From Aliiruegeria lutimaris (GTDB lineage: Bacteria > Pseudomonadota > Alphaproteobacteria > Rhodobacterales > Rhodobacteraceae): a stretch of DNA of 38,588 nt. Within the stretch, counting starts at the first letter, position 1. Every line of letters begins with the position of its first letter. Below are positions 9,457 through 33,801 of this stretch, in pieces. Where the stretch lies: the NCBI RefSeq assembly GCF_900099935.1, contig NZ_FNEK01000049.1, positions 1-38,588 of the forward strand. Direction: 5' to 3'. The notes beneath the pieces are model-generated. The model was not told where the DNA came from. It did no database searches and saw only the letters and a list, made by a program, of their open reading frames with translations. Position numbers and translations under genes: made by a program.

Positions 9457-11358
9457 TCAACTATCCAGGCGCATCTTTAGAAAGCGCAGGAAAATCAATG
9501 GTTCATCGGCAAAGACAAGCTCCATCGACGGGCTTGATCCACCCGACGCCTCCGCGTTGAATGCCGCTTTCACCTCATCAACATCGGGTACTTGCCGCAG
9601 GGTCTGTTCGACAGCGTCAAAATCAACAACCCTTGTCAGGCGGGGATCTCGTCGCATCTGCTGTAGTTCTCCGAGGTAGTCGTCCCTTTGTTCGGCCAGG
9701 CGCAACAGGTTACATGGAAATGGCGTCTGTTTCTGGCGCAGGGTGCGGACGCTTTCCGGAACCAGGTCCCTGATCGCCTCTCGAAAGATGGCCCGCCCAA
9801 GACCGTCTTTCCTTAAAAACCCCGCAGGCAACCGAATGGCGTACTCCAAAAGATGCCGGTCAAGCATCGGGAATGTATATTGGATGCCCCGCGCGGCCCC
9901 TTGCATCGCCCAATTTTCAAGGCGGTAGGCGACGAACCCGTCATTGAACCGATTTAATCGGTTCTTACGGGTGTTTGCTCCCGGGCGCGTCGCGCGCTTT
10001 GTGGTTTTTCGGAACGCGGGTTGGAGCATTTTGATGAGTTTTTCATCGACCGTTTCTGGCACATCTTTCTTCCCGGCAACCCGTCTCAGGGTGTTCCACA
10101 GCCTGGGCGGCACAAGCGTTTCTGCGACCTCGTTTGCCAGGATGCTTGTCTTTCTGGCGCCCGTTCGCTCGGACCTGGCGTGGATCTCCTGCAAAAGCTG
10201 TCGCCACCGGCCGCGCAGGAAAAGCTCTCCATAGGCTCCCTGACCGGCAAATGACACGACCTCGTCACCGCCCCAACCGGAGAGAATGACGTCGACGGTG
10301 TCGCGTTCGGCTGCATCCAGGATCCTTTCCTCCGCGCCGAAATACACCGCCATGCGATCCCGTAACGCACCGATGTGATCCGCAAAATCTTCGGGAGGCG
10401 CGATCTTCGTGTTGTAGATGTTGGGCTCACCCTGAACAGTGGCGTCGCTGTAGGGTCTCTCATCGAGAAGATGAACATCGGGTCGCGTTCGCGAGACGAA
10501 AGAATAAGTGTGGAGCGGCCTTCCATCCTGTTGCAAGGCGCGGGCTGCCAATACCGAAATGGCCGTAGAATCCAACCCGCCGCTCAGATGCGCTCCGATT
10601 ACCTCCCGTTTCGGGAGCCGACGAAGCACGGCTTCAGACAAATACCTCTTCAAGGTTTGGGCACATTCTTCGAATGACGCGCTTTCGGGAATGGGGTCTT
10701 TACATTTCAGCTCCCAGTATCTGCGCATTGTCACGTCTCCGGACGCGGTCACATGCATGGCGTGCGCGGCCGGCAGACGCTTGAGGCCCTTCACCAGCGT
10801 GCCTTCGACGTCGGACGCATCGTAGACGAAATTCGCCACGGCCGTGCCGAGGTCGAATTCCTCCGAGATCAATCGACTGTGCAGAATGAGGGTTGAATGT
10901 GACGCCCATAAAAGGAATTTTCCGGCTTCGTGAACGTAAAACAAGGGGCGTACGCCGACGTGATCACGGATCAGTGACAAGCGCTGGGATTTCTCATTCC
11001 AAATCGCGTAGGCAAAGTCCCCGTCGATCGGCCTTGCGGCGTCATCCCCGTAGCGTGCATGAAGACGGCACAAGAGACGCTCGCGTTCCTCCGGTGAAAG
11101 ATCTTTCGGGCTGTCTGCCCCGGGCGCAGTGTAAAGCCGTGCATCCGCAACACAGTGGAGGCCCGCCTCTTGGGTCAGCTCGCGACGTAGACTGCGGCGC
11201 CCGAGCGTCAGACGTCCCATCCCGAGCGGGCCCTGGCAGTGAAGATCGAGCGACCGCTCAATATCTGGCGCGACAGGCAGACCATCGGCCATGCGGTTCA
11301 ATACGCCGTCATCGACCGGTCTGCCATCTAAGTGTAAAATTCCGAAAATCAAATCCAT
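9457..11358 (-). CDS. Lasso peptide cyclase C (asparagine synthetase B-like)
   Basis: Predicted 633-residue ATP-dependent amide-bond-forming enzyme. Residues 1-200 form a class II glutaminase-like domain (GDFAYAIW, RDHVGVRPLFY), but residue 2 is Asp, not the catalytic Cys of true asparagine synthetases, so it should not hydrolyse glutamine. The synthetase domain has the PP-loop HLSGGLDST (257-265) and a second conserved region ILSGWGGDEV. This combination is the hallmark of lasso cyclases, which adenylate an Asp/Glu side chain and join it to the core N-terminus. It is the last gene of the RiPP operon, 6 bp after the ATP-grasp gene. Housekeeping AsnB is unlikely given the context and the missing Cys. 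Confidence 0.88.
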   Translation of the reverse strand: MDLIFGILHLDGRPVDDGVLNRMADGLPVAPDIERSLDLHCQGPLGMGRLTLGRRSLRRELTQEAGLHCVADARLYTAPGADSPKDLSPEERERLLCRLHARYGDDAARPIDGDFAYAIWNEKSQRLSLIRDHVGVRPLFYVHEAGKFLLWASHSTLILHSRLISEEFDLGTAVANFVYDASDVEGTLVKGLKRLPAAHAMHVTASGDVTMRRYWELKCKDPIPESASFEECAQTLKRYLSEAVLRRLPKREVIGAHLSGGLDSTAISVLAARALQQDGRPLHTYSFVSRTRPDVHLLDERPYSDATVQGEPNIYNTKIAPPEDFADHIGALRDRMAVYFGAEERILDAAERDTVDVILSGWGGDEVVSFAGQGAYGELFLRGRWRQLLQEIHARSERTGARKTSILANEVAETLVPPRLWNTLRRVAGKKDVPETVDEKLIKMLQPAFRKTTKRATRPGANTRKNRLNRFNDGFVAYRLENWAMQGAARGIQYTFPMLDRHLLEYAIRLPAGFLRKDGLGRAIFREAIRDLVPESVRTLRQKQTPFPCNLLRLAEQRDDYLGELQQMRRDPRLTRVVDFDAVEQTLRQVPDVDEVKAAFNAEASGGSSPSMELVFADEPLIFLRFLKMRLDS

Positions 11359-11364
11359 GACGAT

Positions 11365-12537
11365 CTAGATGTATTCTTCCACGATAGAGGCGAAAGGCGT
11401 GTCTGCAATCGGATGGTCAGGCACGGCCTGAAAATGAAAACACCCCCATCCTGCATTGGCCTCCAATAAAACCGGTCCCCCATCGCCAAAGGCTATATCC
11501 CATCCTAAAAAGATGAAGTGTGGCAGTTCGCTGTGGCCTTTCCGAACATAGTCCAACGCCTCTTGCCAATTCGGGAGCTGACTTCCCTCAAGCTGGCGGC
11601 TGGCGCAGGTTTCCGAGGCCTCATAGACGGGGCCAATCTGTCCGGAATGCAGTTCGATCATTGCAATGTGTCCGCCTTGTGTGATGTCTGATCCCTCGCG
11701 CGGCCAAACGGCCATTGCATCAATGATGTCCACGTCTCCATTCCGGCGCCGGCCGGTCACGATCCGCGCACATAGCGGAGACGGACCAATTATCGGCGCA
11801 TGGCTCGGCCAGGCTTTGATCACCTCCTGTACCAGAGTTTCACTGTGTTGTCGGGCATGTTCCGCAATATGCTCAGCCATCGCGTCGGGTGTCAAAACCA
11901 GCGCTCCGCGCCGATAGCCTCCGTCTTTCCAGCGCCACCGCTCTGCGCCGATCCCCTGAGATCCGCAGGATGGTTTTAGCCAGAGGTTCGCTCGGGGCAG
12001 GCTGTTCTCTCCCACGGGATCTCCCTTTTTCCAAACGCCGAAACTCCGAGGCGAAGGGAGGTCAAGTCCGTCACAGAATTCGGAAAAGAATTGCTTGTTG
12101 GCCACCGGGCCGAGTTCGCCATCCCCGCCTACGACCGCGTTCAACCCGGCCAGGGCGGGTCCGTTCTCATGCCAATAAAGGTAATCGTCCAGGCGGGCTC
12201 GCCGCTCCGACCGCCAAAGCTGATGCAGGAAATATTCCAGCGGCGGCACATTGTACCGTATCGCGAGCCACCAGGCGTCGATGATCCTCACAGGGGATGC
12301 CCGCTCCCTTAGTCCGACAGAGGCAGCCGTGCTGGCGGCCCCCATCGGCCATAGGACACTCATCGCCAACATTGCAACCATCCGTCGCCAAAACGGGCGC
12401 CCGGAAAACAGGTTCCGTCGCGCCATGACACGCAGGCGATGCATGGCAGGGCGGCCGCGCGGGATCCGGCAGGGGTGAAATGGGAACCCCGATTGGCTGA
12501 ACTGGGCCCACCGTGCCTGGAGCCGGCTTCCTGTCAT
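11365..12537 (-). CDS. ATP-grasp enzyme (sugar-transfer-associated type)
   Basis: Predicted 390-residue protein. The N-terminal 70 residues are basic with a hydrophobic stretch (MVAMLAMSVLWPMGAAS). The ATP-grasp fold follows: LWLKPSCGSQGIGAERW is the nucleotide-binding strand and loop, TLVQEVIKAWPSH the hinge strand, and LGWDIAFGDGGPVLLEANAGWG the metal-binding E/N region. The pattern fits ATP-grasp proteins classed as sugar-transfer associated (ATPgrasp_ST). Such enzymes ligate a carboxylate to an amine or other nucleophile via acyl phosphate. Its ATG overlaps the B2 stop (ATGA, 12534-12537), so the two are translationally coupled. It is not a standard lasso component and may be an extra tailoring ligase. 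Substrate unknown. Confidence 0.75.
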   Translation of the reverse strand: MTGSRLQARWAQFSQSGFPFHPCRIPRGRPAMHRLRVMARRNLFSGRPFWRRMVAMLAMSVLWPMGAASTAASVGLRERASPVRIIDAWWLAIRYNVPPLEYFLHQLWRSERRARLDDYLYWHENGPALAGLNAVVGGDGELGPVANKQFFSEFCDGLDLPSPRSFGVWKKGDPVGENSLPRANLWLKPSCGSQGIGAERWRWKDGGYRRGALVLTPDAMAEHIAEHARQHSETLVQEVIKAWPSHAPIIGPSPLCARIVTGRRRNGDVDIIDAMAVWPREGSDITQGGHIAMIELHSGQIGPVYEASETCASRQLEGSQLPNWQEALDYVRKGHSELPHFIFLGWDIAFGDGGPVLLEANAGWGCFHFQAVPDHPIADTPFASIVEEYI

Positions 12538-13004
12538 CTGAATGCCGCAAGCGGCACGTAGTCAAACACATCCGGACCACCCACCACGATGGTCTCTCCG
12601 ACTTCAAGCCATGCATGTGCATTGGCGCCACTAGGGTGTGACACCCGCTGAACCGGATCCCGATGGACACCGATGTAAACCGTCCCCGGCACAGCACGAA
12701 GACGCAGCATGATCCGGGCCGCGATGGCTTGCTCCATACAGAGGGCTTTGAATGGCACAACCGCGGCCGCTCTCTGAACGGCTGATCCCACGACCCGTGC
12801 CGTCTCTATTTGCGCGTGCGAGGCGTCAAACAGCGTGTCTGTGTCTTTTTGCGGAATTCCGCAGATGCGTGAATAAAACCGCATCGGAAGGCAGGTTAGA
12901 ATCCGTGCAATGCTCAGGGCAACGGAGGCTTCCAGTAATCGCAGCTTCCGTGCCGTGGGCGCGCGTAGAAAGGAAGTTACCATCGCAAGCATTGAACCGG
13001 TCAC
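12534..13004 (-). CDS. Lasso leader peptidase B2 (transglutaminase-like Cys protease)
   Basis: Predicted 156-residue member of the lasso B2 / Transglut_core3 family. The catalytic triad is visible: Cys89 in FKALCMEQA, His130 in GANAHAWLEV, and Asp145 (or Asp148) in GGPDVFDYV. The preceding RFYSRICGIP region is also typical. It removes the leader peptide of the precursor after delivery by the RRE protein B1. The GTG at 13004 is chosen because AGGCGAG lies about 6-8 nt before it. An in-frame ATG 12 bp further in is the alternative. It overlaps the ATP-grasp gene by 4 bp and follows B1 by 82 bp. Confidence 0.88.
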   Translation of the reverse strand: MTGSMLAMVTSFLRAPTARKLRLLEASVALSIARILTCLPMRFYSRICGIPQKDTDTLFDASHAQIETARVVGSAVQRAAAVVPFKALCMEQAIAARIMLRLRAVPGTVYIGVHRDPVQRVSHPSGANAHAWLEVGETIVVGGPDVFDYVPLAAFR

Positions 13005-13086
13005 TCGAGCTCGCCTGAATGCGTCATCTGCGGCCTGGTATCTTTATGCTTCAACGAACACCGGGAAGTCGGCGACGTGAGACTTC

Positions 13087-13377
13087 TCACCCGCAATCCT
13101 GCACCCTTTCAATGAGATCATGCGTCATCAGATCGTTCAAAAAACGCAGGGTCTCCGCCTCACACTCCATGCGGCCGACGTCATAGGTGCCGAGCAGCGC
13201 ATCAACGATGGAAGAGACGCGAACCTCGCCGTCCATCTCTCGCCAAATCGCCAGGCCCGTTTCACTCACAGAGAAGTACCGCCCAGAATCAATCCGCATC
13301 ATCAGAGTTTCAGCCCCGATATCGGCCTCCATCTGGCCCGCGCGTTTCGTTACGATGTCATCCAATGACAGGTGCAT
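13087..13377 (-). CDS. Lasso RRE protein B1 (PqqD-like)
   Basis: Predicted 96-residue PqqD-fold protein, a RiPP recognition element that binds the precursor leader. It shows the family pattern ETLMMRIDSGRYFSVSETGLAIWREMDG (beta hairpin then helix), followed by the winged-helix part VSSIVDALLGTYDV and CEAETLRFLNDLMTHDLIE. No PQQ biosynthesis gene is nearby; the partners are a lasso protease, a cyclase and a precursor, so the role is leader recognition for B2. The ATG at 13377 starts the conserved fold. It is separated from the precursor gene by 91 bp containing a small stem-loop. Confidence 0.88.
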   Translation of the reverse strand: MHLSLDDIVTKRAGQMEADIGAETLMMRIDSGRYFSVSETGLAIWREMDGEVRVSSIVDALLGTYDVGRMECEAETLRFLNDLMTHDLIERVQDCG

Positions 13378-13399
13378 TAGAGCTATATTCCGACAACCT

Positions 13400-13414
13400 G
13401 TGAGGGAGGCTCAC
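13400..13414 (-). terminator. Stem-loop between precursor gene and B1
   Basis: GTGAG-GGAGG-CTCAC, a perfect 5-bp stem with a 5-nt loop in the gap between the precursor stop and the B1 start. Stem-loops at this position in RiPP operons can stabilise or partially terminate the precursor message so that more precursor than enzyme is made. There is no T-run, so it would be an attenuator or processing site at most. Confidence 0.3.
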
Positions 13415-13468
13415 TGCAGAACGCGTCAATCGGGTCAACGCAGTCAGACTTTACTCCCGAAGCGAGGC

Positions 13469-13624
13469 TCAGGACAGGGAGGCATTGTGCTTGGAGTTAC
13501 CACCCTCGTTCGTATTTGTCTTGGATGCAGCGGGGGTTGCCTTCGAGACATTGAGCACAGGGGTCTTCCACGCTTTTTTTGCAGCTTCAATGTTGATTTT
13601 AGCACTTTGATCCGTCTTCGCCAT
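13469..13624 (-). CDS. Lasso-type RiPP precursor peptide A
   Basis: A 51-codon gene read directly from the minus strand, starting MAKTDQSAKINIEAAKK. A GGGGAG-type ribosome binding site lies about 9 nt upstream. The leader contains W19-K-T-P22-V-L24, matching the Y/W-x-x-P-x-L element bound by B1 proteins, and Thr30 stands at -2 relative to the predicted core. The core would be AASKTNTNEGGNSKHNASLS (20 residues) with Glu at position 9 to close a ring on Ala1. The C-terminal residue is Ser, the residue phosphorylated in paeninodin-type lasso peptides, and an HPr-kinase homologue is the neighbouring gene. Cleavage and ring assignment are inference. The core lacks the bulky plug residues usual in threaded lassos. 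Confidence 0.82.
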   Translation of the reverse strand: MAKTDQSAKINIEAAKKAWKTPVLNVSKATPAASKTNTNEGGNSKHNASLS

Positions 13625-13984
13625 CTGGCCTGCTCCCCCCCACTGAACGACGTATGGTCAATTTCCAAAACCCTACAACAAAATGCGCTGAAGTAAATAG
13701 GTCGGATGTGCTCATCAGTGACCCAAGTTTTCAAAACCTGTCTGTTCCAAGCGAAACGATGCGAGCTGCCAGGCGGCGCGTAGATACAAAATCGGGCTCC
13801 CCCCCTCAAGCGCGACCCGTCCAACTCCGTGGCGTTGGGGCGGAGACCCAGGGCACCGGGATCGACAACGTGATATCTGGAAGGTGACTATCTTTTCAGA
13901 AGCGAAAGTCCTTTTCAGAAGCGAAAGTCGCCCCACCGAGCCAATATGTAGACGGGCTTCCCAAGCCTCGGCGTCCACAAGGTG
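13625..13984 (-). other. Leader region between the kinase gene and the precursor gene
   Basis: 360 bp without a convincing gene in an otherwise tight operon. The precursor may have its own promoter here, but no clear -35/-10 pair was found. The region contains a perfect 19-bp tandem repeat next to the kinase stop (13892-13929). Confidence 0.4.
13892..13929. repeat. Two perfect tandem copies of a 19-bp unit
   Basis: CTTTTCAGAAGCGAAAGTC occurs at 13892-13910 and again at 13911-13929 without a mismatch. Each unit is itself a rough inverted repeat (CTTTTC ... GAAAG). It lies upstream of the precursor gene, so it may be an iterated regulator-binding site, or simply a recent slippage duplication. 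Confidence 0.85.
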
Positions 13985-14899
13985 TTACTTGTCTAGACAC
14001 TGCACGTGGCGCAGCACCAGGTCCACGACCCGGTCGAGCTCGTCGAAATGGTGCTTCCGCACCACTCTGTATATCTCCGACTGCCGGAGAAGGGCGGTTG
14101 CGGCCTCAAAGTACAGCTCCTCGTCCTTCAAATGTTGAACAAGGAAGGGACGATAGGCATTTCTTCTGATGCAAATCGCGGCTTCCGCCAATGGGAGAGG
14201 CATGCTGCGTGGATCGCCCTTTGCGTCTTCAGTCGTCAACTCGAAAATCGCCCGGATAGGAAACCGGTCTCGTGGCAGAACGCCCCCATCGACGAAAAAC
14301 TTGTCATATCTGCGATGGACCGCCCTCCCCTTTGCGTCCTGCAAGCCCAATGCCTTGATCGTGTCTTCCCATAATTTTAGCTTACGGCCGTCCGAGTGCG
14401 CGATCGCTCCGTCGTCCGAAACCTCGATAGCGCAAAGATCATCACACAAGAGCGTGAAACCTCGACGATGCAGCGACGCGGCCATGGTCGATTTGCCAGA
14501 ACCCGATGGGCCGCAAAGCAGGACGGCGCCGCCCGCGATCTCCACGGCGCTCGCGTGCAAAGTGACAATCTTGCGCATATGAAGCGCGATCCCCAGCACG
14601 GAACCAACCAGGTAGGCCGCAATTTCGTCTGGGTTTTCGGATTTCGGCCAAACGGAAACCGTCCCCTCCGCCGAAATATCGAACACAGCAACATCGGGCT
14701 CCGTGAAATGGAAGTGGGTTCCGTCGCTTTGCCAGTATGGCCCCGTGCTGGTGGGATCGACGAGAGCCGTGGGTGCGCATTTCGCATGCACGAAGCGCAG
14801 TTGAGGCACTCCTGCGCCTTCGGTGTCCTCGACCAGGCCCGGCAAATCAAATTCGCTTTCGATCACCAGCCCGGCACTTCTGTAGGTCTTGACTTTCAA
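13985..14899 (-). CDS. HPr-kinase-like lasso peptide kinase
   Basis: Predicted protein of 304 residues with the HPrK/P C-terminal kinase fold: HASAVEIAGGAVLLCGPSGSGKSTMAASL carries the P-loop (Walker A 130-138), and LLCDDLCAIEV (about 150-160) the conserved acidic pair. No phosphotransferase-system gene is nearby, and the partner is a precursor ending in Ser. HPrK homologues in lasso clusters such as paeninodin phosphorylate the C-terminal Ser side chain, so that is the likely reaction. The TTG at 14899 is chosen because AGGA sits 7 nt upstream and the fold begins there. The frame is open to 15016 but overlaps the nucleotidyltransferase. 34 bp separate it from that gene. Confidence 0.82.
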   Translation of the reverse strand: MKVKTYRSAGLVIESEFDLPGLVEDTEGAGVPQLRFVHAKCAPTALVDPTSTGPYWQSDGTHFHFTEPDVAVFDISAEGTVSVWPKSENPDEIAAYLVGSVLGIALHMRKIVTLHASAVEIAGGAVLLCGPSGSGKSTMAASLHRRGFTLLCDDLCAIEVSDDGAIAHSDGRKLKLWEDTIKALGLQDAKGRAVHRRYDKFFVDGGVLPRDRFPIRAIFELTTEDAKGDPRSMPLPLAEAAICIRRNAYRPFLVQHLKDEELYFEAATALLRQSEIYRVVRKHHFDELDRVVDLVLRHVQCLDK

Positions 14900-14933
14900 A
14901 TTGACATCCTGAGCGGCCAGCAACGGCCTCGTT

Positions 14934-16172
14934 TCATTGACCTTCGGCGCGAGCAGGGAGTGCACGACCGAGCATGCGCGCTGCCCGAATAAACAGGTAC
15001 CCGACTTCGAGGCCACGAGGCAAATCGATCATCACCAGCTCTGGTGGGGTGGGAGCAAACAGCAGACGAAAACGAGAGACACGCTCCTGGCGGGTGTGGG
15101 AGGCCGAAAGCGCCGTGTGACGCAGCAGCGACCGGGCAATTTTCAGCGGATGTCGGGAATGAAGGGGATCTTCCCGCAAGCTCGCCGTTTCAAGCATCCA
15201 GTCGAGGGATTGCTCTGCTAGTATTTCGCACCGCGGCAAGGACTGAACCAATCGCTCAATGGGGGGCGGGAGGGGGACGTTATCTATCCGAGCTGCAACG
15301 AGGGCGGCCGCACCGACAGCGCCGGACATGCCGATTTCCCGGGCGCGGTCGACAACGCCCTCCCAGTCGTTTTGATTGAGCCGCCCATTTTGCAATGTCC
15401 AGCGGATATCATTGAGCCATTTCAACCGCATCCACCCGTGTGACAGACCATGCGCACATAGATAGATAAAATGCTCGATGCGGTCGGGGACCAGGATTTC
15501 GCCCATTCCGGCCATGACCATGGGTTGAGCCCAGGCACGGTGAGGATCGGTTGGCATCATTCCTTCAACCTTCTGCCAGCGCCAGTGCAACTCGACGCCG
15601 ATCTCCTTGGACGGCGCAAGAAAAGCAAGTTGGTTTGTCACCCGCATCAGGCGTTTCCGCTGACGGTCGGAGCTTAGCAGGGCGCCAAAGTCGGCGCGAT
15701 AGTCCAGGCCCTCCAACTCGACCGCCGCCTCACGCGCCTGGCTTGGCGGAAGCAATATATCGATGTCGCCGGGATCTCGAAGGGCGAGATCATAATGGAT
15801 CATCAGAGACAACGGTGCCCCCTTCATCACCGCAGCCTTTATGCCGGCATCCCTCAGCGCACTCGCAACCAGACACGTCTCGCGGGCCAGCAAGAGTGCG
15901 CGAAAGGCTTGCGCCCTGGCGATGTTTTCCAACTGACGGCGCGCCGGGTCCGGCATTTGAATCTCCGGCATCCTGTCCAGGTTACGCCGTAAAAGCAGAA
16001 CAGACTTGTGTCGGAAAGCCAGGTTGATCAAACGGCTCCAGTCCACGGGCCCGACTGGAACACGTGGAGCGGGTCCTGTCAGCTGGACGAGCGTCCACCA
16101 CACCGCACTGTCCGCATCCAATCTGTCCGCGTCTTCTGCATTTTGGGTCACGGGGCTTCGATACGTTTTCAA
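14934..16172 (-). CDS. Nucleotidyltransferase-family protein (NTP_transf_5-like) of the RiPP operon
   Basis: Predicted protein of about 412 residues with a nucleotidyltransferase (pol-beta-like) core: IKAAVMKGAPLSLMIHYDLALRDPGDIDILLPP, where K117-G118 and the D136-x-D138 pair form the expected metal/nucleotide site. A helical C-terminus (RIEHFIYLCAHGLSHGWMRLKWLNDIRW) is typical of this family, which often accompanies HPrK-like kinases in lasso clusters. It may act on the phosphorylated peptide. The start is uncertain: TTG at 16172 overlaps the stop of a 9-codon minicistron that begins on the exporter stop (TGATG at 16196-16200), suggesting coupled reinitiation. The frame is open up to 16268. 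Confidence 0.75.
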   Translation of the reverse strand: MKTYRSPVTQNAEDADRLDADSAVWWTLVQLTGPAPRVPVGPVDWSRLINLAFRHKSVLLLRRNLDRMPEIQMPDPARRQLENIARAQAFRALLLARETCLVASALRDAGIKAAVMKGAPLSLMIHYDLALRDPGDIDILLPPSQAREAAVELEGLDYRADFGALLSSDRQRKRLMRVTNQLAFLAPSKEIGVELHWRWQKVEGMMPTDPHRAWAQPMVMAGMGEILVPDRIEHFIYLCAHGLSHGWMRLKWLNDIRWTLQNGRLNQNDWEGVVDRAREIGMSGAVGAAALVAARIDNVPLPPPIERLVQSLPRCEILAEQSLDWMLETASLREDPLHSRHPLKIARSLLRHTALSASHTRQERVSRFRLLFAPTPPELVMIDLPRGLEVGYLFIRAARMLGRALPARAEGQ

Positions 16173-16197
16173 TAGAGTGGATCCAACTTCGACGTCA

Positions 16198-17886
16198 TCA
16201 TTGTTCTTCGAGGGACGCGCGTGCCGTCCCGATGCGGGGTGCCATTCGGTCCTCGTCGATCTTGCCACCCCGGAGGTTCAAAACGCGGTCCGCCAGTGCG
16301 AGGCTGGCCGGTCGATGTGTGATCAGGATAACCGTACTTCCTGCCAAAGCCTTGCGCGCCGTTTCAACGAACCGGGCTTCGCTCTCAGGATCGAACATCG
16401 CGGTTGGTTCGTCCAGCACGAGGATCGCGGGTTTCTTGAGAAGCGCCCGCGCCAGGGCGACCCGCTGACGCTGGCCACCAGACAAGCGGATGCCCGCCTC
16501 ACCGATTTTCGTGTCGAGACCTTCCCGAAGCTCGGAAATAAAGGCCCAGGCTTCGGCTTCACGCGCGGCGTGCTCGACCTGATCGCGCGTTGCGTCCGGC
16601 AAGCCCAGACGGATATTGTCTGAGATCGTTCCATCAATCAGTGCCACCCGCTGCGGCACGAGGGCGATGGTCTGGCGATACGCAGAAAGCTCGACAGTCG
16701 ATATGTCCCTTCCATCGAGGCGGATTGTTCCTTCATCCGGAGTTCGGAACCGGAGCAGCAGATCGACCAGCGTGCTTTTCCCGGCCCCATTTCTCCCAAG
16801 AATGGCGACAGTCTGTCCTGCGGTTATCTCGAAACTGACGTCTCTCAGGAGTTCCGGACGGCCGGCATAGCGAAAGCGTATGCTCTCGAAACAAAGGTTG
16901 CCCTTCACCTCTTTTGGCAGCGGATCTCCCTGTCTGGCTTCCGGGGACATGGCGAGCACGATGGTCATATGGCGCAGCGCGCCGCGCGCATGCTGAAACT
17001 GCCCCCAAAGATCGGCAAAGCGCGCAACGGGCCGCGTCAACAAGCCCGCATAGAGCAGGAAGCTGACGAGCTCCCCGGCTCCCATCTCGCCCTCGGCGAC
17101 CTTTCCTCCGGCCAGCCAGAGAATGAGGACGACCGAGGCTGCGGCGATGAAGTTGACGATTGGGCCGAGAAGACTTTGGTACGCAATCATGCGCTCCTGG
17201 AGGTCGCGGTGGCGCAAGACACTGGTTTTGATGCGCTGTGCCTCGATTGTTTCGCGCGTGTAAGCCTTTATCACTGGCAAGATGGACAGGTTTTCGTCGG
17301 CCAGAGAAACCCAGGTCGCGTAGGCATCGCGGATCTGTCCGGCAAGCGGGCGAATATTGCGACCGAAGATCTTCATGAAGATGTAGAAGGCAGGCACACC
17401 GAGAACGATCGGGATCGTCAGGATCGGATCGATCGTCAGCATCAGGGCCAAAGACCCCGTCAGCACGATCAATTGTGGCACGATGCCAAGAAGAGACCCC
17501 GTCACGAATTCGCTCAGGACATCGACTTCGCGTGTCATGAGCGACAAAAGCTCACCTCGTCGCTGATCTTCGAGCCAGGGCAAGGGGAGGCGCTGAAGAT
17601 GATCGTAGATCCCGATCCGAAGTCCCGCGGTCAATCGCTCGACCGTGCGCTGCAACACGCGCCGTTGAAGGATCTGCAGGCTCGATTGCAGGAAGAGAAG
17701 GCCGATCAGGCCGCCGGCAAGCAGGCCGATCGAGACGTCGTCTTGTGTAAACAATCCGCCGATAATCAATCCGCCAAGCCATGGAACGAAAAGGACGGCA
17801 CCGCTTTCCACCAGCATAAGCAACAGGCAAAACGCAAGGGGCCAGCGATAGCGCCAGAGATTTTGCCGAAGGAATGCTGTTCTCAC
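16198..17886 (-). CDS. ABC exporter D of the lasso operon
   Basis: Predicted 562-residue half-transporter. Six membrane segments (first at WPLAFCLLLMLVESGAVLFV) precede a nucleotide-binding domain with Walker A GRNGAGKST, Q-loop LVPQRVAL, signature LSGGQRQRVALARAL and Walker B ILVLDEPTAMFD. D proteins export the mature lasso peptide and often confer immunity. There is no N-terminal C39 peptidase, as expected because B2 removes the leader. It is the first gene of the operon, with a GTG start at 17886 and a GGGG stretch upstream. The next gene follows within about 30 bp. Confidence 0.85.
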   Translation of the reverse strand: MRTAFLRQNLWRYRWPLAFCLLLMLVESGAVLFVPWLGGLIIGGLFTQDDVSIGLLAGGLIGLLFLQSSLQILQRRVLQRTVERLTAGLRIGIYDHLQRLPLPWLEDQRRGELLSLMTREVDVLSEFVTGSLLGIVPQLIVLTGSLALMLTIDPILTIPIVLGVPAFYIFMKIFGRNIRPLAGQIRDAYATWVSLADENLSILPVIKAYTRETIEAQRIKTSVLRHRDLQERMIAYQSLLGPIVNFIAAASVVLILWLAGGKVAEGEMGAGELVSFLLYAGLLTRPVARFADLWGQFQHARGALRHMTIVLAMSPEARQGDPLPKEVKGNLCFESIRFRYAGRPELLRDVSFEITAGQTVAILGRNGAGKSTLVDLLLRFRTPDEGTIRLDGRDISTVELSAYRQTIALVPQRVALIDGTISDNIRLGLPDATRDQVEHAAREAEAWAFISELREGLDTKIGEAGIRLSGGQRQRVALARALLKKPAILVLDEPTAMFDPESEARFVETARKALAGSTVILITHRPASLALADRVLNLRGGKIDEDRMAPRIGTARASLEEQ

Positions 17887-18024: not shown

Positions 18025-18126
18025 CACTGACACTGACACTGACACTGACACTGACACTGACACTGACACTGACACTGACACTGACACTGACACTGACACT
18101 GACACTGACACTGACACTGACACTGA
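18025..18126. repeat. Hexanucleotide microsatellite, 17 perfect CACTGA units
   Basis: 102 bp of uninterrupted CACTGA, with no mismatch, ending just before AGCGCGCC. On the plus strand one frame encodes Thr-Leu repeats and runs directly into a gene-like sequence (KRAEILVRVKAFEAR). The minus strand gives Ser-Val or Cys-Gln repeats. It lies 139 bp upstream of the RiPP exporter start. A unit of six bases changes length without shifting frame. Confidence 0.97.
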
Positions 18127-18927: not shown

Positions 18928-19049
18928 GGTCCGAATCGCTGTTTGGGAAGCTTGTAATCCAGTGAAGTTGCCCGCATTTTCCCCTTTCCGCGATGTGGTT
19001 GGGGGTGTTAGAATTCGCGGCATGCGGAATGATGAGATTTCCCAGTGAC

Positions 19050-20033
19050 ATGACACGAAAACTCAGCATTTCCATTATCAACTTTCGCACAGGAAATATG
19101 ACGCTGGCCTCCGTCCAATCGGCCTTGGCCGACCTCGCTGGCGTGGAGGACAGGAAGCCAATTGATGGCTGGGTCATTGTGGTTGACAACGACTCCGGCG
19201 ACGGTTCAGCGGAGCAGATCGAGGATTGGATCGAGGCCAACCCCGAGGAACCTGTGGAACTTGTCCGGTCGGCTGTCAATTCCGGCTTTTCCGGCGGTCA
19301 CAATCAGGGGCTCGCGGCGATGGAGGCCGAGTTCACCCTCGTACTGAATTCGGATGCAGAAATCCGGCCGGGTTGTCTCGGGGCGTTGCTTGATGCCGCC
19401 GAAACTCACCCCGGTTTTGGGCTTTTTGCGCCGCGACTGGAAGACGAGGACGGTACGCCGCAAATCAGCAGTTTCCGCGATCACAGCCCGTTGAGCGAAC
19501 TAATCCGGGCGGCCGGGACCGGCCAATTGACAAGGATGCTCAAGAGGTTCGACGTCCCAACTTGCACTGCTCCGAATCCGGGCAGAATCGACTGGTCGAG
19601 CTTTGCCGCCGTGCTGCTGCGTCGAAAGATGGTCGACGAGATTGGTTCACTCGACGAGGGATATTTTCTCTATTTCGAGGATACCGACTATTGCCGCACT
19701 GCTCGGAAGGCTGGCTGGGGTGTGATGCATGTGCCAGAGGCCCGCGTGGTGCACCATCGTGGCGGCAGCGGTCCGGTGAAAGGGCTTGAGGATGCCCGAA
19801 AACGCTTGCCGCCCTATCTTTATGCTTCGCGTACACGCTTCTTCTTCAAGGCCTATGGCTGGACTGGAATCGTAGCGGCCAACCTGATGTGGCATCTCGG
19901 ACGCGGTATCGCTCAGTCCAGGCGGCTGTTTGGCAAACCGGTTCCGCCGGCGAACGAAGCGGAATGGCGGGATATCTGGACCAATGTCGCGCATCCTTCC
20001 GGACCGCGCCGGGCGCCTTGGGAGGACCGATAG
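19050..20033 (+). CDS. Glycosyltransferase family 2 (rhamnosyltransferase WbbL-like)
   Basis: Predicted 327-residue GT-A enzyme. It starts MTRKLSISIINFRTGNMTLASV and contains WVIVVDNDSGDGS, the NSGFSGGHNQGL loop, LNSDAEIRPG (the DxD-like metal site), and the acceptor-side GYFLYFEDTDYCRTARKAGW, in which the ED pair is the usual catalytic base region. This order is typical of WbbL-type GT2 enzymes that add deoxyhexoses such as rhamnose, but the donor is not certain. ATGs at 19029-19032 are alternative starts. The stop overlaps the GTG of the following sulfotransferase (TAGTG). Confidence 0.88.
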   Translation: MTRKLSISIINFRTGNMTLASVQSALADLAGVEDRKPIDGWVIVVDNDSGDGSAEQIEDWIEANPEEPVELVRSAVNSGFSGGHNQGLAAMEAEFTLVLNSDAEIRPGCLGALLDAAETHPGFGLFAPRLEDEDGTPQISSFRDHSPLSELIRAAGTGQLTRMLKRFDVPTCTAPNPGRIDWSSFAAVLLRRKMVDEIGSLDEGYFLYFEDTDYCRTARKAGWGVMHVPEARVVHHRGGSGPVKGLEDARKRLPPYLYASRTRFFFKAYGWTGIVAANLMWHLGRGIAQSRRLFGKPVPPANEAEWRDIWTNVAHPSGPRRAPWEDR

Positions 20034-20857
20034 TGGAAGAAATCCCCGATTTCGTGATCATAGGCGCAATGAAATGCGGCACCTCTACGCTGCAGGCACA
20101 GCTGGCAATCCAACCGGGCATCTTCATGACCACGCCCAAGGAACCGAACTACTTCTCGGACGATGACGTCTTCGCCCGGGGGAAAGCCTGGTATGCTGGG
20201 CTCTTTGCGGAGCGGCAACCAGGAGATCTCACCGGCGAGGCCTCCACGCATTATACCAAGCTTCCGACCCATCCGAGAACGCTCGATCGCATGGGTGCGC
20301 GCCTCAACTCACCAAAACTAATCTACTTGATGCGCGACCCGCTGGAGCGGGCGATATCGCATTACATACATGAATGGAGCATGGGCGTGATGGGAGAGGA
20401 TCCGGCCGAGGAGTTTGAGCGCCATCCTGAACTCACTGACTATAGCTGCTATGGGATGCAACTTGCTCCATATGTCGAACGCTATGGGCGCGAGGCGATC
20501 CTGCTTCTGCAGATGGAAGACATGAAATCCGATCCCCAGGGGACACTCGACCAGGTTTCCAGGTTTCTTGGTCGGGAAGGGTTTCAGTGGGATCCGGATC
20601 TTGGCACGCAGAATGTCTCAGCTGAACGGGTTCGGCGCCTGCCATTTCATGACCTGATCGTCGACAACGAGGTTGCGACGCGGCTGCGGCGTGCGCTGGT
20701 GCCGAAATCGGTTCGTCGATGGATTCGCAGCAGCCGGCAGATGCGAGATCGACCAGAGCTTCCCGAAGATCTCAAGGAGCGGTTGCGCGTTACCTTCTCC
20801 GAAGACCAAGAGAAGCTCCGGGCACTCTTTCCCAGCGACCGGACGATATCTTCATGA
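20033..20857 (+). CDS. Sulfotransferase (PAPS-dependent), first copy
   Basis: Predicted 274-residue cytosolic sulfotransferase. The 5'-phosphosulfate-binding loop is FVIIGAMKCGTSTLQAQL (about 7-24), and the 3'-phosphate-binding segment is LIYLMRDPLERAISHY. Typical linking elements are PKEPNYFSDD and GEASTHYTKLP. It would transfer sulfate from PAPS to a hydroxyl of the glycan. The GTG at 20033 overlaps the GT2 stop and has GGAGGA 7 nt upstream. Its own stop overlaps the next GT2 start (ATGA at 20854-20857), so three genes form a coupled unit. Confidence 0.9.
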   Translation: MEEIPDFVIIGAMKCGTSTLQAQLAIQPGIFMTTPKEPNYFSDDDVFARGKAWYAGLFAERQPGDLTGEASTHYTKLPTHPRTLDRMGARLNSPKLIYLMRDPLERAISHYIHEWSMGVMGEDPAEEFERHPELTDYSCYGMQLAPYVERYGREAILLLQMEDMKSDPQGTLDQVSRFLGREGFQWDPDLGTQNVSAERVRRLPFHDLIVDNEVATRLRRALVPKSVRRWIRSSRQMRDRPELPEDLKERLRVTFSEDQEKLRALFPSDRTISS

Positions 20858-21822
20858 CCGCGTTTGCAAAAAACCCTGCTGCCGCCATCGCGATCGGCCG
20901 CAATGAGGGCGAACGGTTAGAGCGATGTCTCTCTTCGCTCGTGCGGCAGTTCGACCAAGTTATCTATGTCGATTCCGGATCCTCGGACGGTTCTATCGAA
21001 TACGCGCGCGCCCAAGGCGCCGAGGTGGTCGAGCTTGACCCATCGATCCCATTTACCGCGGCGCGAGCTCGCAACGCCGGGTTCGAGGCGTTGAGATCGC
21101 GCGGTCTGCCGGAGTTTGTCCAGTTCATCGACGCAGATTGCGAGCTGGATCCTGACTGGGCGCCGACAGCTCTGATGGCGCTAGAACTCGACCCGAAACT
21201 CGGAGTGGTCTGCGGTCGGCGTCGCGAGCGGTTCCCGGAAGTCTCGGTCTATAACCGTCTGGCGGATTCCGAATGGGACACGCCGATTGGCCCGGCGAGA
21301 GCGTGTGGCGGCGACGCCATTTATCGAACCGCAGCCTTTGAGGGTGTCAATGGGTTCAACCCCGATCTTATTGCCGGCGAGGAGCCGGAGCTATGTTTGC
21401 GTCTCGCACGTGCAGGCTGGGGGATCGAACGTCTGGATGCAGAGATGACGCTGCATGACGCCCAGATGACCCGTTTCGGTCAGTGGTGGCAACGCTCGCG
21501 CCGCGCCGGTTTCGCCTTTGCTGAAGGCGCTGCCATGTATGGCAAAGACCCCGAAAGGCATTGGGTGGCCGAAACACGCCGGGCATTGGTCTGGGCACTG
21601 ATCCTACCGCTGACGGTCCTGTTTTTCGCATTTTTTCTAAACCCGTGGGCGCTGCTGGGGTTCCTTGTCTACCCGCTGCAGGTGATGCGTCTGCAGCGGA
21701 GTATGGGATGGGAACGGGGTTTGTTCCTGACACTCGGGAAATTCGCCGAGATGCAGGGGATCACCGATTACTGGCGAAAACGCATCCTGGGGGGAAAACA
21801 GGCACTGATCGAATACAAGTAG
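20854..21822 (+). CDS. Glycosyltransferase family 2, membrane-associated
   Basis: Predicted 322-residue GT2. The catalytic domain has AIAIGRNEGERLERCLSSL, YVDSGSSDGSIEYAR (nucleotide binding) and VQFIDADCELDPDW (DxD metal site), followed by RACGGDAIYRTAAFEGVNGF and a conserved GEEPELCLRLARAGW acceptor region. Near the C-terminus there are one or two membrane segments (LVWALILPLTVLFFAFFLNPWALLGFL). The ATG overlaps the preceding sulfotransferase stop by 4 bp, so it is translationally coupled. Sugar specificity cannot be read from sequence. Confidence 0.88.
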   Translation: MTAFAKNPAAAIAIGRNEGERLERCLSSLVRQFDQVIYVDSGSSDGSIEYARAQGAEVVELDPSIPFTAARARNAGFEALRSRGLPEFVQFIDADCELDPDWAPTALMALELDPKLGVVCGRRRERFPEVSVYNRLADSEWDTPIGPARACGGDAIYRTAAFEGVNGFNPDLIAGEEPELCLRLARAGWGIERLDAEMTLHDAQMTRFGQWWQRSRRAGFAFAEGAAMYGKDPERHWVAETRRALVWALILPLTVLFFAFFLNPWALLGFLVYPLQVMRLQRSMGWERGLFLTLGKFAEMQGITDYWRKRILGGKQALIEYK

Positions 21823-21987
21823 TACCGCCGCCCATCGATTTCGGGGCGTCTTCCTGCCGCCCCGACAGGAATGTCGAACAGGGCTCCAAACGGTTCAGAC
21901 AAACGAACCACCTCCGATCGCGGAGAAAACACACTTCCCGCCCGACTGTCCAGCTGGGCCCGCAATGCACTGTCCATTGGTCGGAAA

Positions 21988-23430
21988 ATGGCCTACTCGT
22001 CCAGTATGCCCACCGCCTCTTCTAATCGAAGGGCAGGGCAAAAGGTTCCGTCGTCTCACCACGAGGCTTGCTTTTTGAGAAGATTTCTCAACAGGTTTTC
22101 CGGGGAAAGCGTAGCCGCTCGCACGCTGCGAGGATCACTGTGGACGGCTCTCGCATTTGGTGGTGAGAACCTTCTGCGCCTGGTCTCCAATCTCGTCTTG
22201 ACGCGTTTGCTCTTCCCAGAGGCGTTCGGCCTAATGGCAATTGCACAGGTCTTCCTGACTGCGATGCAGATGCTTTCGGACGCCGGATTGCGCCCGGCCG
22301 TCATCAAGGACTCGCGGGGAGATGACCCCGCCTTTCTCAACACTGCCTGGACCGTTCAAATCCTGAGAGCAAACTTGCTTTGGCTCTTGGTCTTCCTGTT
22401 GGCCAGTCCGGCGGCAGCGATCTATGGCGAACCCATTCTGGCACAGCTATTGCCTTGGATGGGTTTCACAATCATCTTGCAGGGCCTCACTCCAACCGCT
22501 GTCTGGACCGCTGAGCGCCATCTTCATCTTGGTCGGCTGACCATAATCCAATTGGGCGTTGCGGCCTTTCATATCGTTGTGGCCTGCTTGCTCGCGTGGC
22601 AGATGCAGTCGGTTTGGGCGCTGGTTTTCGCAGCGCTTGTCTCTTCGGCCTGCAAGCAAGCCGCGTATTGGAAGTTTGTTCCGAATGCTTCCAACCGCCT
22701 GTTTTGGGAGCGCGAAGCTCTGCAGAGCTTGTTCCATTTCGGCAAGTTCGTCTTCGTGAGCAGCATCGCAGGATTCCTCGTTGGACAGGGAGACCGTGCG
22801 TTGCTCGGCCTTTACACGTCGATGGCCGAACTTGGCGTGTACAATATCGGCTATTTCATGGCGATGGCCCCGTCCCTTCTAGCTGTTGCGGTCCAGAAGA
22901 GCGTGATTTTCCCACTCTATCGCTTGAAGCCAATTTCGACCGATCCAGACAGCCGCGAAAAGGTTTTCAGGGCGCGTCGCCTACTCGCAACGACGATGAT
23001 TGTCTTCAGTTTGACCCTGTCGGCCACAGGTCCCTGGCTGGTGCGTTTCCTCTATGACGACCGCTACGTATCTGCCGGCCCGATGATGGCGCTGTTCGGA
23101 TTAACGATCGTTCCCCTGCTAACGCTTCGAACGACTGGCCAGATGTTGCTGGCGATGGGAGACTCGAAAAGATTCCTCAACACAGTCCTGGTAGCGGCGA
23201 TATTCCAGACTTTTCTGTTGTTTGTGGGAGTACGCGAACTTGGCGTGGTTGGTGCAATCCTGGCACCCGGAGTGGCTTGCGTCATCTCGTACCCGCTGCA
23301 CATGCAATACGCGAAGATCTACAAAGGTTGGGATCCGGTGCATGATGTCGGCTTGACGATACTCGGAATGCTTGGTGCCCTCGGTATCTGCATCTGGCAC
23401 GCCGAAACTATTTCGACGCTGTTTCCCTGA
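21988..23430 (+). CDS. Wzx-type polysaccharide flippase (MVF/MATE-like)
   Basis: Predicted 480-residue integral membrane protein with about 12 hydrophobic segments. The first conserved part is ARTLRGSLWTALAFGGENLLRLVSNLVLTRLLFPEAFGLMAIAQVF, typical of the oligosaccharide flippase family, and the later LVGQGDRALLGLYTSMAELGVYNIGYF is the conserved middle loop. It would flip undecaprenyl-linked repeat units to the periplasm. The start is uncertain: the frame is open from 21871. 21988 is chosen because the weak GGAAA lies just before it and the family normally has a short cytoplasmic N-terminus. Confidence 0.85.
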   Translation: MAYSSSMPTASSNRRAGQKVPSSHHEACFLRRFLNRFSGESVAARTLRGSLWTALAFGGENLLRLVSNLVLTRLLFPEAFGLMAIAQVFLTAMQMLSDAGLRPAVIKDSRGDDPAFLNTAWTVQILRANLLWLLVFLLASPAAAIYGEPILAQLLPWMGFTIILQGLTPTAVWTAERHLHLGRLTIIQLGVAAFHIVVACLLAWQMQSVWALVFAALVSSACKQAAYWKFVPNASNRLFWEREALQSLFHFGKFVFVSSIAGFLVGQGDRALLGLYTSMAELGVYNIGYFMAMAPSLLAVAVQKSVIFPLYRLKPISTDPDSREKVFRARRLLATTMIVFSLTLSATGPWLVRFLYDDRYVSAGPMMALFGLTIVPLLTLRTTGQMLLAMGDSKRFLNTVLVAAIFQTFLLFVGVRELGVVGAILAPGVACVISYPLHMQYAKIYKGWDPVHDVGLTILGMLGALGICIWHAETISTLFP

Positions 23431-23735
23431 CATCAGACGGTCCCATTCATTTGAACACTCCAAGTCTGGTAGGCACACCTTGATCATGAAGGCACCGGGC
23501 TTCTTCCGTCCATTCGGGTTCCGGCGACAGAAACTGGGAGCAGGTTTATCTCCTCGCCCGAGAGAAAACCCAGCGGCGAGAGCAAAGCCCTCCCAAAGCG
23601 CCGAACGAGAACGGTCTATAGGCTTGAAAAGGTAGCCATCAAACCTGACCCATAGGAACAGGGCGTGGCTTGAACCGCCAATGGTCCGGTTCGAGTTTAA
23701 AAGAACAGCTTGCAGGCATATTCAACTCTGGCGGC
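23431..23735. other. Convergent intergenic region between flippase and GT4 genes
   Basis: 305 bp between the plus-strand flippase and a minus-strand glycosyltransferase. No gene, no clear terminator hairpin and no repeat were found. Confidence 0.4.
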
Positions 23736-24800
23736 TCAGCCTTCCAGTAGCGCGGCCTCAAAGAGCTTTGTCGCATCATCCCAGCTATACTGTTCAACCT
23801 GTTCAAGTGCCGATTGAGACAGGGTACGCCAGAGAGCATCATCCAGCGAAAGGACCTTGATCAATCCCTCTGCAAGCAACTCCCAGTCTTCGACATCCGC
23901 AAGATAGCCATTCACTCCATTGACAATCACATCAGGTGCACAACCTGTCCGCGTGGCAACCACCGGCGTGCGGCACGCCATTGCCTCGAGGATCGGCAAC
24001 CCGAAACCTTCGACGCGACTGGCCGCAAGGAACACATCACAGCTGGCATAGATATTGCGGATTTCCTCCTGTTTGGGTGCCAGGTGAAACTCGGTTTCAG
24101 GAGGCAGTCCCAGCTGTTTTCCAGGTGGAGACGCGCCAAACGCCACGAGATGCACGTCAGGAACCGACTTTCTTGCATGTTCGATCGCTCTCAAGGCGGT
24201 ATCTACACCCTTGAACGCGACTGGAGAATACATGAGGCCGATTGTGGGATTTGCCTGGCGCCCGCGCTCTTTCGCATGGAACAATGACTGATCTACGCTG
24301 TTGGGGACCACAATGGTATCGGTGTCTCCGTAGGTATGGGCCATTGTATCGCTCAGCCATCGGGCAATGGTAATCTTCTTCAAGGGAAGATGATAACTGC
24401 CCGCAGATATATGGTTCGGCAGCGCCTCATGAACTTCGTGGTGCTGCACAAAATAGAATTTCTGTCCCTTGGTCGGAGACAAGCGAGAGACCGAGAACGC
24501 GGTTTCCCACCAAGTGGCGATCACGACATCGGCATCCGGCAGATCGTGATCTGTGACCGGGTCGGGATGGTCCAATGCTATCCATTTGGCCTTCATGCTC
24601 TCGAAATGGTTGGATGAGGGCGGCCGCGACCAACGCCCGCGCAGTACATCACGCAATACGTCACAACGGCTTGGTTTGCGTGGACGGGTTGTAACCACGG
24701 TAACGTCATGCCCAAGCGCCGTCAGGCGATCCGCATAGATTGAGACAACTCTACAACCTCCAGAGAGATTGGCTTGCGGATGGATAAAGGTGATTTTCAA
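23736..24800 (-). CDS. GT4-type glycosyltransferase
   Basis: Predicted 354-residue GT-B enzyme. The N-terminal KITFIHPQANLSGGCRVVSIYADRL is the canonical GT4 glycine loop region, followed by DVVIATWWETAF and FYFVQHHEV. The donor domain has IGLMYSPVAFKGVDTALRAI and the E-x7-E motif EGFGLPILEAMACRTPVVATRTG. Start TTG at 24800 is supported by AAGGGG 8 nt upstream and by the family N-terminus. That TTG overlaps the stop of an upstream minus-strand frame (TTGA), suggesting it was once the second gene of a minus-strand unit. It is now isolated among plus-strand genes. Confidence 0.86.
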   Translation of the reverse strand: MKITFIHPQANLSGGCRVVSIYADRLTALGHDVTVVTTRPRKPSRCDVLRDVLRGRWSRPPSSNHFESMKAKWIALDHPDPVTDHDLPDADVVIATWWETAFSVSRLSPTKGQKFYFVQHHEVHEALPNHISAGSYHLPLKKITIARWLSDTMAHTYGDTDTIVVPNSVDQSLFHAKERGRQANPTIGLMYSPVAFKGVDTALRAIEHARKSVPDVHLVAFGASPPGKQLGLPPETEFHLAPKQEEIRNIYASCDVFLAASRVEGFGLPILEAMACRTPVVATRTGCAPDVIVNGVNGYLADVEDWELLAEGLIKVLSLDDALWRTLSQSALEQVEQYSWDDATKLFEAALLEG

Positions 24801-25216
24801 CGCACCTGCCCCTTAGCGAAAATCAGATCTTGCCCTTTAGGTGCGTAGCAGTCGTCAAAGCGTTTGTCAGAGAGAATTTTACCCAAGGAGCAAGGACTTG
24901 CCGAATGCTGAGCGAAGAAGCCAGCCCATGCTCCAGAAGACGTCGAAAAAGCTCTGCAACCAGGCAGGAGCGCGTTGGTTACCGCTTTTACATCCTCTCC
25001 GAATTGACCATAAATTGACTTGGTGGTTCCACCAAATGGAGCACCCGCATTGCTGACATTCGATGTCTTTGTGCCAATGAGGCTTCGTAACACAACAGGG
25101 CCATGAAAGAGAGGCAATGCGTGGCTCCGATCGGTCGTTGGAGAACTGAGTGCGATGACAAAGGGCAACCCGGAAACCAGTTCACGGACGGGGCAGACCA
25201 GTTTTGAAGTCCCCAT
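24797..25216 (-). CDS. Possible C-terminal remnant of an unknown gene
   Basis: Minus-strand frame of about 139 codons whose stop overlaps the TTG start of the GT4 gene. The last 100 residues look protein-like (FGGTTKSIYGQFGEDVKAV, GAWAGFFAQHSASP, DKRFDDCYAPKGQDLIFAKG) but I recognise no family. The start is arbitrary (an ATG at 25216), and the 5' part is adjacent to or overlaps the opposing sulfotransferase gene. It may be the tail of a gene truncated when the plus-strand genes arrived. Confidence 0.3.
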   Translation of the reverse strand: MGTSKLVCPVRELVSGLPFVIALSSPTTDRSHALPLFHGPVVLRSLIGTKTSNVSNAGAPFGGTTKSIYGQFGEDVKAVTNALLPGCRAFSTSSGAWAGFFAQHSASPCSLGKILSDKRFDDCYAPKGQDLIFAKGQVR

Positions 25217-25277
25217 CTGGGCACGAAGCCGCAACGGTGTCGCTTTCGCAGACGTGCCAAGACGTGGTGGTGGGCGT

Positions 25278-26150: not shown

Positions 26151-26188
26151 CAGGTAAGGTATTCGGCTGATCCTGGCTCTTTTCTTCC

Positions 26189-27142: not shown

Positions 27143-27216
27143 GCTCTCGTCCTGGTTCCGGTCGGAAGAAACCAGGTACGCGAGTTGGGCAGGTGAAAAC
27201 TGTGTCTCGGCCGAAT

Positions 27217-27229
27217 GCCCGATAACGCA
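27217..27229 (-). promoter_or_regulatory. ops-like motif, copy D
   Basis: Minus-strand TGCGTTATCGGGC beginning 10 nt after the stop codon of the Wza-like gene, so it would be transcribed as the tail of the export operon. Over 18 bp it is identical to copy C. Confidence 0.5.
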
Positions 27230-27239
27230 GGCTCCCGCC

Positions 27240-28610: not shown

Positions 28611-28636
28611 GGGCGGGTCCCCTTTTGTGTTCTGGC

Positions 28637-31449: not shown

Positions 31450-31591
31450 TGACGCTTGCCCGTCTTGCTCTCAAATCCCCGACGATTCTACACGTCCCTT
31501 CGACGGCACCTTACGGCTCCAGGAGTGGCGGCGACAGAAAAATCAAGCTCCTTGCAGCAAGATATATGCAATAGTGGTTGTTTGGACCACA

Positions 31592-33769: not shown

Positions 33770-33787
33770 CTGCCTGCAACTATTGGA

Positions 33788-33801
33788 GCCGAACATTCGG
33801 C
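33788..33801. promoter_or_regulatory. Perfect inverted repeat just upstream of the Wzc-like gene
   Basis: GCCGAA-CA-TTCGGC, two 6-bp arms separated by 2 bp, 19 bp before the preferred ATG of the kinase gene. It could be an operator or a short mRNA hairpin affecting translation start. The size is also compatible with chance. Confidence 0.3.

Follow-up and report, generated by a model that had tools for sequence, protein, structure and literature searches.

What does an ATP-grasp ligase do in an operon that appears to make a lasso peptide? The question is posed by DNA from Aliiruegeria lutimaris (genome of 5.8 Mb in 193 contigs), positions 1–38588 of contig C143, which we call the window (38,588 nucleotides) and in which one minus-strand block at 9457–17886 holds eight open reading frames (ORFs) in the order D, N, K, A, B1, B2, X, C. 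Direct support comes from the gene content, the recurrence of the ATP-grasp protein X in lasso clusters, its fold and conserved residues, and its association with a lysine in the predicted ring of the precursor. We propose, as a reading to which we give an even chance, that the operon yields a phosphorylated lasso peptide subject to one further tailoring step, with X acting as an amide ligase on the ring lysine. In a search of open-access literature that did not cover the primary reports on paeninodin and polyphosphorylated lasso peptides, we found no description of ATP-grasp tailoring of lasso peptides; new here are the recurrent ATP-grasp partner and its link with the ring lysine, and the modification itself is a prediction. 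The analysis defines a recurrent lasso cluster set and names a candidate tailoring enzyme together with its probable target residue, so that a mass measurement can test the modification directly.

A predicted lasso operon of the phosphorylated type

The operon comprises the following features:
16198..17886, minus strand: D, ABC exporter (PF00664 and PF00005)
14934..16268, minus strand: N, protein with a nucleotidyltransferase fold, possibly PsmN-like (PF14907; start uncertain, longest ORF overlaps D)
13985..15016, minus strand: K, HPr-kinase-like peptide kinase (PF07475 just over cut-off; start uncertain, longest ORF overlaps N)
13469..13624, minus strand: A, predicted precursor of 51 aa (W-x-x-P motif, Thr at −2, Glu9, C-terminal Ser; plan common to relatives)
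13087..13377, minus strand: B1, PqqD-like leader-binding protein (PF05402 over cut-off)
12534..13004, minus strand: B2, cysteine leader peptidase (PF13471 and NF033537 over cut-off)
11365..12537, minus strand: X, putative ATP-grasp ligase (PF14397 over cut-off; invariant ATP-grasp residues; confident model; fold matches to Ddl, RimK, LysX and PylC)
9457..11358, minus strand: C, Asn-synthetase-like putative macrolactam cyclase without Cys2 (PF00733; best NCBIfam model a lasso cyclase, below cut-off)

All eight ORFs are present at the place and in the order given by an earlier note made from the sequence alone. For K and N the start codon is uncertain, since the longest ORF of each runs into the preceding gene. 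The stop codon of B2 and the start codon of X overlap (ATGA), and 6 nt separate X from C.

We scanned the operon proteins against the Pfam and NCBIfam libraries. B2 scores 74.3 bits with NF033537 (lasso_biosyn_B2; cut-off 33) and also exceeds the cut-off of PF13471; B1 exceeds that of PF05402 (PqqD) and reaches 70.4 of the 80 bits set for lasso_PqqD_Bac. C matches PF00733, lacks Cys2, and has as its top NCBIfam model lass_lactam_cya, at 235.6 bits against a cut-off of 525. The lasso-type assignment of the earlier note is borne out by B1 and B2 above their family cut-offs and by a cyclase that is nearest to the lasso model, though under its cut-off. K scores 33.7 bits with PF07475 (cut-off 33.3), and its residues His154, Lys175, Asp192 and Asp193 are invariant in an alignment of 12 rows; we take them to be the His-Lys-Asp-Asp motif that the accessible part of PMC9266682 describes as essential for lasso kinases, which phosphorylate the C-terminal Ser. 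The same part reports that PsmN adds a hexose onto the Ser-linked phosphate (PMC9266682). N matches PF14907 (NTP_transf_5) at 148.8 bits, and by analogy K and N would fit Ser phosphorylation followed by hexose addition.

These genes place the operon beside known systems, which we compared by review description only. With the phosphorylated lasso peptides of the paeninodin/SyanK type it has in common B1, B2, C, D, an HPr-like kinase and a C-terminal Ser; it differs in X, since the parts of the review accounts available mention no ATP-grasp protein. Pseudomycoidin, from Bacillus (psm cluster, with PsmK and PsmN), has a kinase and an NTP-transferase-fold protein in common with the operon, again with no ATP-grasp protein mentioned in those parts. 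According to the accessible part of PMC13381572, clusters for linear polyphosphorylated peptides (LPPs) and paeninodin-like clusters of Bacilli hold, as the window does, an HprK-like kinase, an NTP transferase, a leader-recognition element (RRE), an exporter and a setting in capsular polysaccharide loci; LPPs are described there as lacking a cyclase and having a signal-peptidase-like protease, unlike the operon. The likeness to the paeninodin group drawn by the earlier note thus stands, given the kinase, the nucleotidyltransferase and the C-terminal Ser, and it extends to pseudomycoidin. By its gene content, the cluster is predicted to be of the phosphorylated, paeninodin/pseudomycoidin-like lasso type, within an exopolysaccharide locus.

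The leader of A ends in KKAWKTPVLNVSKATP and the predicted core is AASKTNTNEGGNSKHNASLS. A carries the leader motif WKTP, Thr at −2 (T-P|A1), Ala1, Glu9 and a C-terminal Ser (ending ASLS), from which an Ala1–Glu9 ring and a terminal Ser as the target of K are predicted. Searches of Pfam and NCBIfam with A gave no match. Precursors of related clusters have, like A, a K-x-W-x-x-P motif in the leader and Ser as their last residue, and the same plan is seen in Hyphomicrobiales UR115 (LTE|GKAFANPTEASPATGS) and Pseudomonas sp. T1-3-2 (LTE|GAKFGFPNETTFSAGPAS). We rejected a chance match as the origin of this ORF, since relatives have the leader motif, the Glu acceptor and the final Ser in the same positions.

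X is a recurrent partner of lasso clusters

X scores 63.4 bits with PF14397 (ATPgrasp_ST; cut-off 31.4). Using one genome per species, a three-row alignment of X and two short peptide patterns, we collected 18 relatives, in 13 of which lasso genes adjoin X. These come from Pseudomonas (2), Sphingomonas (3), Methylobacter, Methylomonas, Verrucomicrobiales, Burkholderiales, UR115, Thermohalobaculum, an unclassified alphaproteobacterium and an unclassified proteobacterium. The remaining five showed no lasso genes within the stretch examined, two of these stretches being short. A class-level sample gave an X match in 21 of 385 genomes and added the lasso loci L096 and L107; in the other ten stretches taken from it, profile search detected no lasso genes. 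A tree of 40 X-like proteins places the X of the window with 12 others in a single clade (support 99/96), all 13 members of which lie in lasso clusters, and X stands immediately before C in 11 of 15 lasso loci. The ATP-grasp gene, which the earlier note had called extra, is a recurrent member of a lasso cluster set. The idea that X is a passenger of polysaccharide loci is weakened by the X tree and by the recurrent position in the cluster.

Residues K148, K188, R258, D347, E359 and N361 of X are invariant across 16 rows, and we take them to be the ATP-grasp catalytic positions. An AlphaFold model of X (mean pLDDT 87.8) was compared with the Protein Data Bank (PDB) by Foldseek, with Ddl, RimK, LysX/ArgX and PylC as best matches (E down to 6e-9). 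Among the 50 matches listed, TM-scores are 0.33–0.42 on query length and at most 0.57 on target length, with 10–18% identity. By sequence, phmmer returned no PDB match at E ≤ 1, and the sole match of the X profile was cyanophycin synthase (0.014). Because of the modelled fold, the amide-ligase matches and the invariant residues, carboxylate–amine ligation is the likely reaction class of X. The amide-ligase chemistry of graspetide synthetases, RimK, LysX/ArgX and PylC would be expected of X on the same grounds; these enzymes differ from X, which is a PF14397 protein and sits in lasso clusters.

Several further ATP-grasp and tailoring genes were seen. At L107 and L159 a remote X-like ATP-grasp protein adjoins precursors that have GNGTSGME and GRGTSGVE cores, with a Lys close to the C-terminus; lasso clusters may thus include another kind of ATP-grasp protein. 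Three adjacent X-like genes occur in one genome at L098, with no lasso genes. Genes for 2OG-Fe(II) oxygenases (by Pfam) adjoin X in L060 (6533–7192) and lie one gene off in L052 (8431–9072), and an ORF in L039 (11114–11965) resembles such an oxygenase by eye only; some X-containing clusters may include a hydroxylation step. We also considered X as a substitute for the cyclase, prompted by L041/L058, where the stretch examined holds no cyclase; the idea was dropped because that genome encodes on another contig an Asn-synthetase-like protein without Cys2, which could serve.

X accompanies a lysine in the predicted ring

A list of precursors from kinase-type clusters with and without X gave rise to the idea of a target residue, as those with X have a Lys at core positions 2–4. 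Kinase loci were sampled (i) across a phylum, with 56 of 398 genomes matching at E 1e-12 or better, many weakly, and (ii) within one family, with 62 of 298 genomes matching at 1e-35 or better. Sixty loci (L138–L197) were taken, plus 14 further stretches. A locus was scored X-positive if the X profile exceeded 100 bits within the stretch examined; as these stretches are mostly 10 to 20 kb, an X gene further away would be missed. Precursors were chosen by pattern (leader motif, terminal Ser) and by eye, and Lys was counted at positions 16–21 after the leader Trp/Tyr in kinase-lasso loci with a readable precursor.

A ring Lys is present in 17 of 18 X-positive loci and 3 of 35 X-negative loci (Fisher p 6e-10); with five alternative position windows, p ranges from 1.4e-9 to 1.3e-8. 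Neither control is associated with X: leader Lys occurs in 8/18 versus 18/35 loci (p 0.77) and Arg at the same positions in 2/18 versus 8/35 (p 0.46). Twenty-one of the 60 loci were dropped, having K but no recognisable precursor (L140, L145, L146, L152, L162, L163, L164, L166, L168, L173, L175, L176, L181, L184–L188, L191, L193 and L195; L162 has X). Also dropped were L054, with X and no precursor found, and L200–L207, L210 and L211, with no precursor found or repeating L141. Three loci stand outside the main count, namely L107 and L159, whose remote X-like proteins score 91 and 57 bits, and L197, with X at a sister locus; putting them in gives 18/19 versus 3/37.

When the Lys idea was noted, 17 of the 18 X-positive and 12 of the 35 X-negative precursor sets had already been seen. 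Examined after that were L096 (X-positive, with Lys) and 23 X-negative loci, two of them with Lys (L160, L177), as well as L197, where both precursors have a ring Lys (Gly-Lys cores) with no X at the locus. In the L197 genome a sister lasso locus about 50 kb off carries X, and in that of L177 a distant X-like match lies inside a 1382-aa ORF on another contig; an X-like match was found in 9 of 39 genomes checked whole.

L162 and L197 belong to one genome, with the enzymes and X at one locus and a kinase, B1 and two Gly-Lys precursors about 50 kb away; this genome may split one lasso pathway over two loci.

A sulfotransferase gene lies between K and B1 in 11 loci and was not found in the window operon. 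We rejected it as the partner of the ring Lys: many X-negative loci carry it without a ring Lys, and the window operon, where it was not seen, encodes a peptide with this Lys.

Several observations weigh against the proposed role of X. The position window and the hypothesis were fixed after most X-positive data were known, and tail Lys also differs, weakly, between the sets (4/18 versus 0/35, p 0.01). L041/L058 has a divergent X and no ring Lys, L150, L160 and L177 have a ring Lys without X at the locus, and L107 and L159 have the remote X-like protein beside a precursor without a ring Lys. The lasso-associated X proteins of L041, L054 and L107 fall outside the lasso clade, on long or weak branches, and the window cyclase scores below the NCBIfam lasso cut-off. 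The association also rests on few independent origins, so that a tree-corrected test is unable to reach significance (0.05): the kinase tree shows five changes of state for X and seven for ring Lys, with three independent pairs on supported branches (five on all branches), and of these three none is opposed and some are tied, whereas at least six pairs pointing one way would be required. One contrast on this tree speaks for the proposed role: the window kinase groups with L138, L139 and L158 (support 98/94), all three without X and without a ring Lys.

Proposed pathway and alternative roles of X

We infer every reaction of the following pathway, above all the substrate of X. B1 would bind the WxxP leader, K would phosphorylate the C-terminal Ser, and N would probably modify the Ser phosphate (with a hexose, as reported for PsmN). 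B2 is predicted to cut the leader off after Thr-Pro, C to close the Ala1–Glu9 ring around the tail, and D to export the product. The calculated [M+H]+ is 1969.93 for the unmodified lasso, 2049.90 with phosphate and 2211.95 with phosphate and hexose. For X, the acceptor would be the epsilon-amine of the ring Lys (Lys4 in the window peptide, mostly Lys2 to Lys4 among relatives). The activated carboxylate joined to it would belong to an amino acid, to a sugar acid or to the C-terminus of the same peptide, and not to another of the peptide's acidic side chains. From position 16 on, 20 of 24 precursors of X-positive loci (L197 included) have a single acidic residue, compared with 19 of 40 from X-negative loci (rank test p 0.003). 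Since most X-positive cores offer no further acidic side chain, an external source or the C-terminus should supply the acyl group. Amide formation at the ring Lys is the most likely activity of X.

The count of acidic residues bears directly on another product, in which X would form a graspetide-like cross-link between Lys and Glu side chains and a Lys–Glu macrolactam would arise instead of, or besides, a lasso. ATP-grasp enzymes make such links in graspetides, and ring Lys and Glu8/Glu9 recur together; the single acidic core residue of those 20 precursors is, however, needed by the accompanying cyclase, and B1, B2 and C are all present in the operon, whose precursor retains Thr at −2, so that we regard a cross-link as unlikely. 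X could also act at the other end of the peptide, with the C-terminal carboxylate, or the phosphate or hexose linked to Ser, as its target and ring Lys correlated by descent only. That end is where K and N should act, the independent origins are few, and L041/L058 has X without a ring Lys. Yet the window peptide has the ring Lys that its nearest X-negative kinase relatives (L138, L139, L158) do not, and leader Lys is unassociated with X; we hold action at the C-terminus to be doubtful.

The setting of the operon suggests that X may not act on the peptide at all: the cluster would be an ordinary phosphorylated lasso cluster, and X a captured ATP-grasp protein, associated with sugar transfer and acting on glycans. 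X-like proteins do exist without lasso genes in the stretch examined, and the window is an exopolysaccharide locus. Against this, the X clade is lasso-specific, X accompanies the ring Lys and overlaps B2 at ATGA, and it keeps its place in the clusters of L047, L049, L050, L053 and L096, where flank scans (partial in all eleven relatives scanned, at 3 to 10 ORFs per locus) revealed no clear polysaccharide locus; action on glycans therefore seems improbable to us. Ligation to the ring Lys is the reading that we retain.

Polysaccharide setting

The operon is flanked by genes for glycosyltransferases, a flippase, Wza-, YjbH- and Wzc-like proteins and a NusG-family protein, which mark an exopolysaccharide locus:
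18993..36829, strand not assigned: exopolysaccharide genes (glycosyltransferases, sulfotransferase, flippase, Wza-, YjbH- and Wzc-like) on one side of the operon

This agrees with the earlier note, which had placed the operon in an exopolysaccharide island beside an RfaH-like gene. The setting is less unusual than that note held, there being precedent in Bacilli, where the accessible part of PMC13381572 locates paeninodin-like and LPP clusters in capsule loci and calls their role unknown, and in the Pseudomonas, Methylobacter and Burkholderiales relatives examined here. In the partial scans, at least two polysaccharide genes lie near the cluster in 4 of 11 relatives: L046 (WecG, Wzy_C), L048 (WecG, epimerase), L051 (several glycosyltransferases, Bac_transf, Wzy_C) and L055 (YjbH, GfcB/GfcC-like). 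L052 has one glycosyltransferase, and L047, L049, L050, L053, L060 and L096 have, in the same scans, no polysaccharide genes or an epimerase only. The polysaccharide setting is recurrent yet not obligatory, and it extends the Bacilli observation of kinase-type lasso clusters in surface-polysaccharide loci to Pseudomonadota.

We infer a possible functional link between peptide and polysaccharide. One form of it, which we rate as a long shot, is that X joins the ring Lys to a carboxylated sugar in the surface polysaccharide or in the precursor of the latter, so that phosphorylated lasso peptides would decorate the polysaccharide. If true, it would explain the recurrence of the clusters in polysaccharide loci, two beside WecG-like and two near O-antigen-ligase-like genes.

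Two sulfotransferase-like genes lie within the polysaccharide locus of the window, at 19889–20857 (PF00685) and 25155–26150 (by eye); a profile of the lasso-cluster sulfotransferase listed neither at E 1e-4.

Genomic context of the operon

Among 9 genomes of the genus, the B2 of the operon was found in this one only, three others giving weak matches (E 8e-5 to 6e-4); the YjbH protein of the locus has a relative in 8 of the 9, this one included. The lasso operon therefore looks like an accessory of this strain.

A repeat lies about 140 bp upstream of D:
18028..18123, plus strand: TGACAC repeat, 16 exact units

A search for four exact units found no second place in the genome, and slippage of the repeat might tune expression of the operon. 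At 8776–9480 lies a shortened ORF of a Mutator-family transposase (profile positions 17–152 of 379), the end of which overlaps the 3′ end of C on the opposite strand, and DNA at the end of the window (37701–38587) resembles annotated IS3-family transposases of plasmids. The genome holds a second lasso locus, L038 (contig C163, 40000–58000), with the order D-C-K-B1-B2. No X, N or precursor was seen in that interval; its cyclase and kinase ORFs are unusually short, and the locus looks degenerate.

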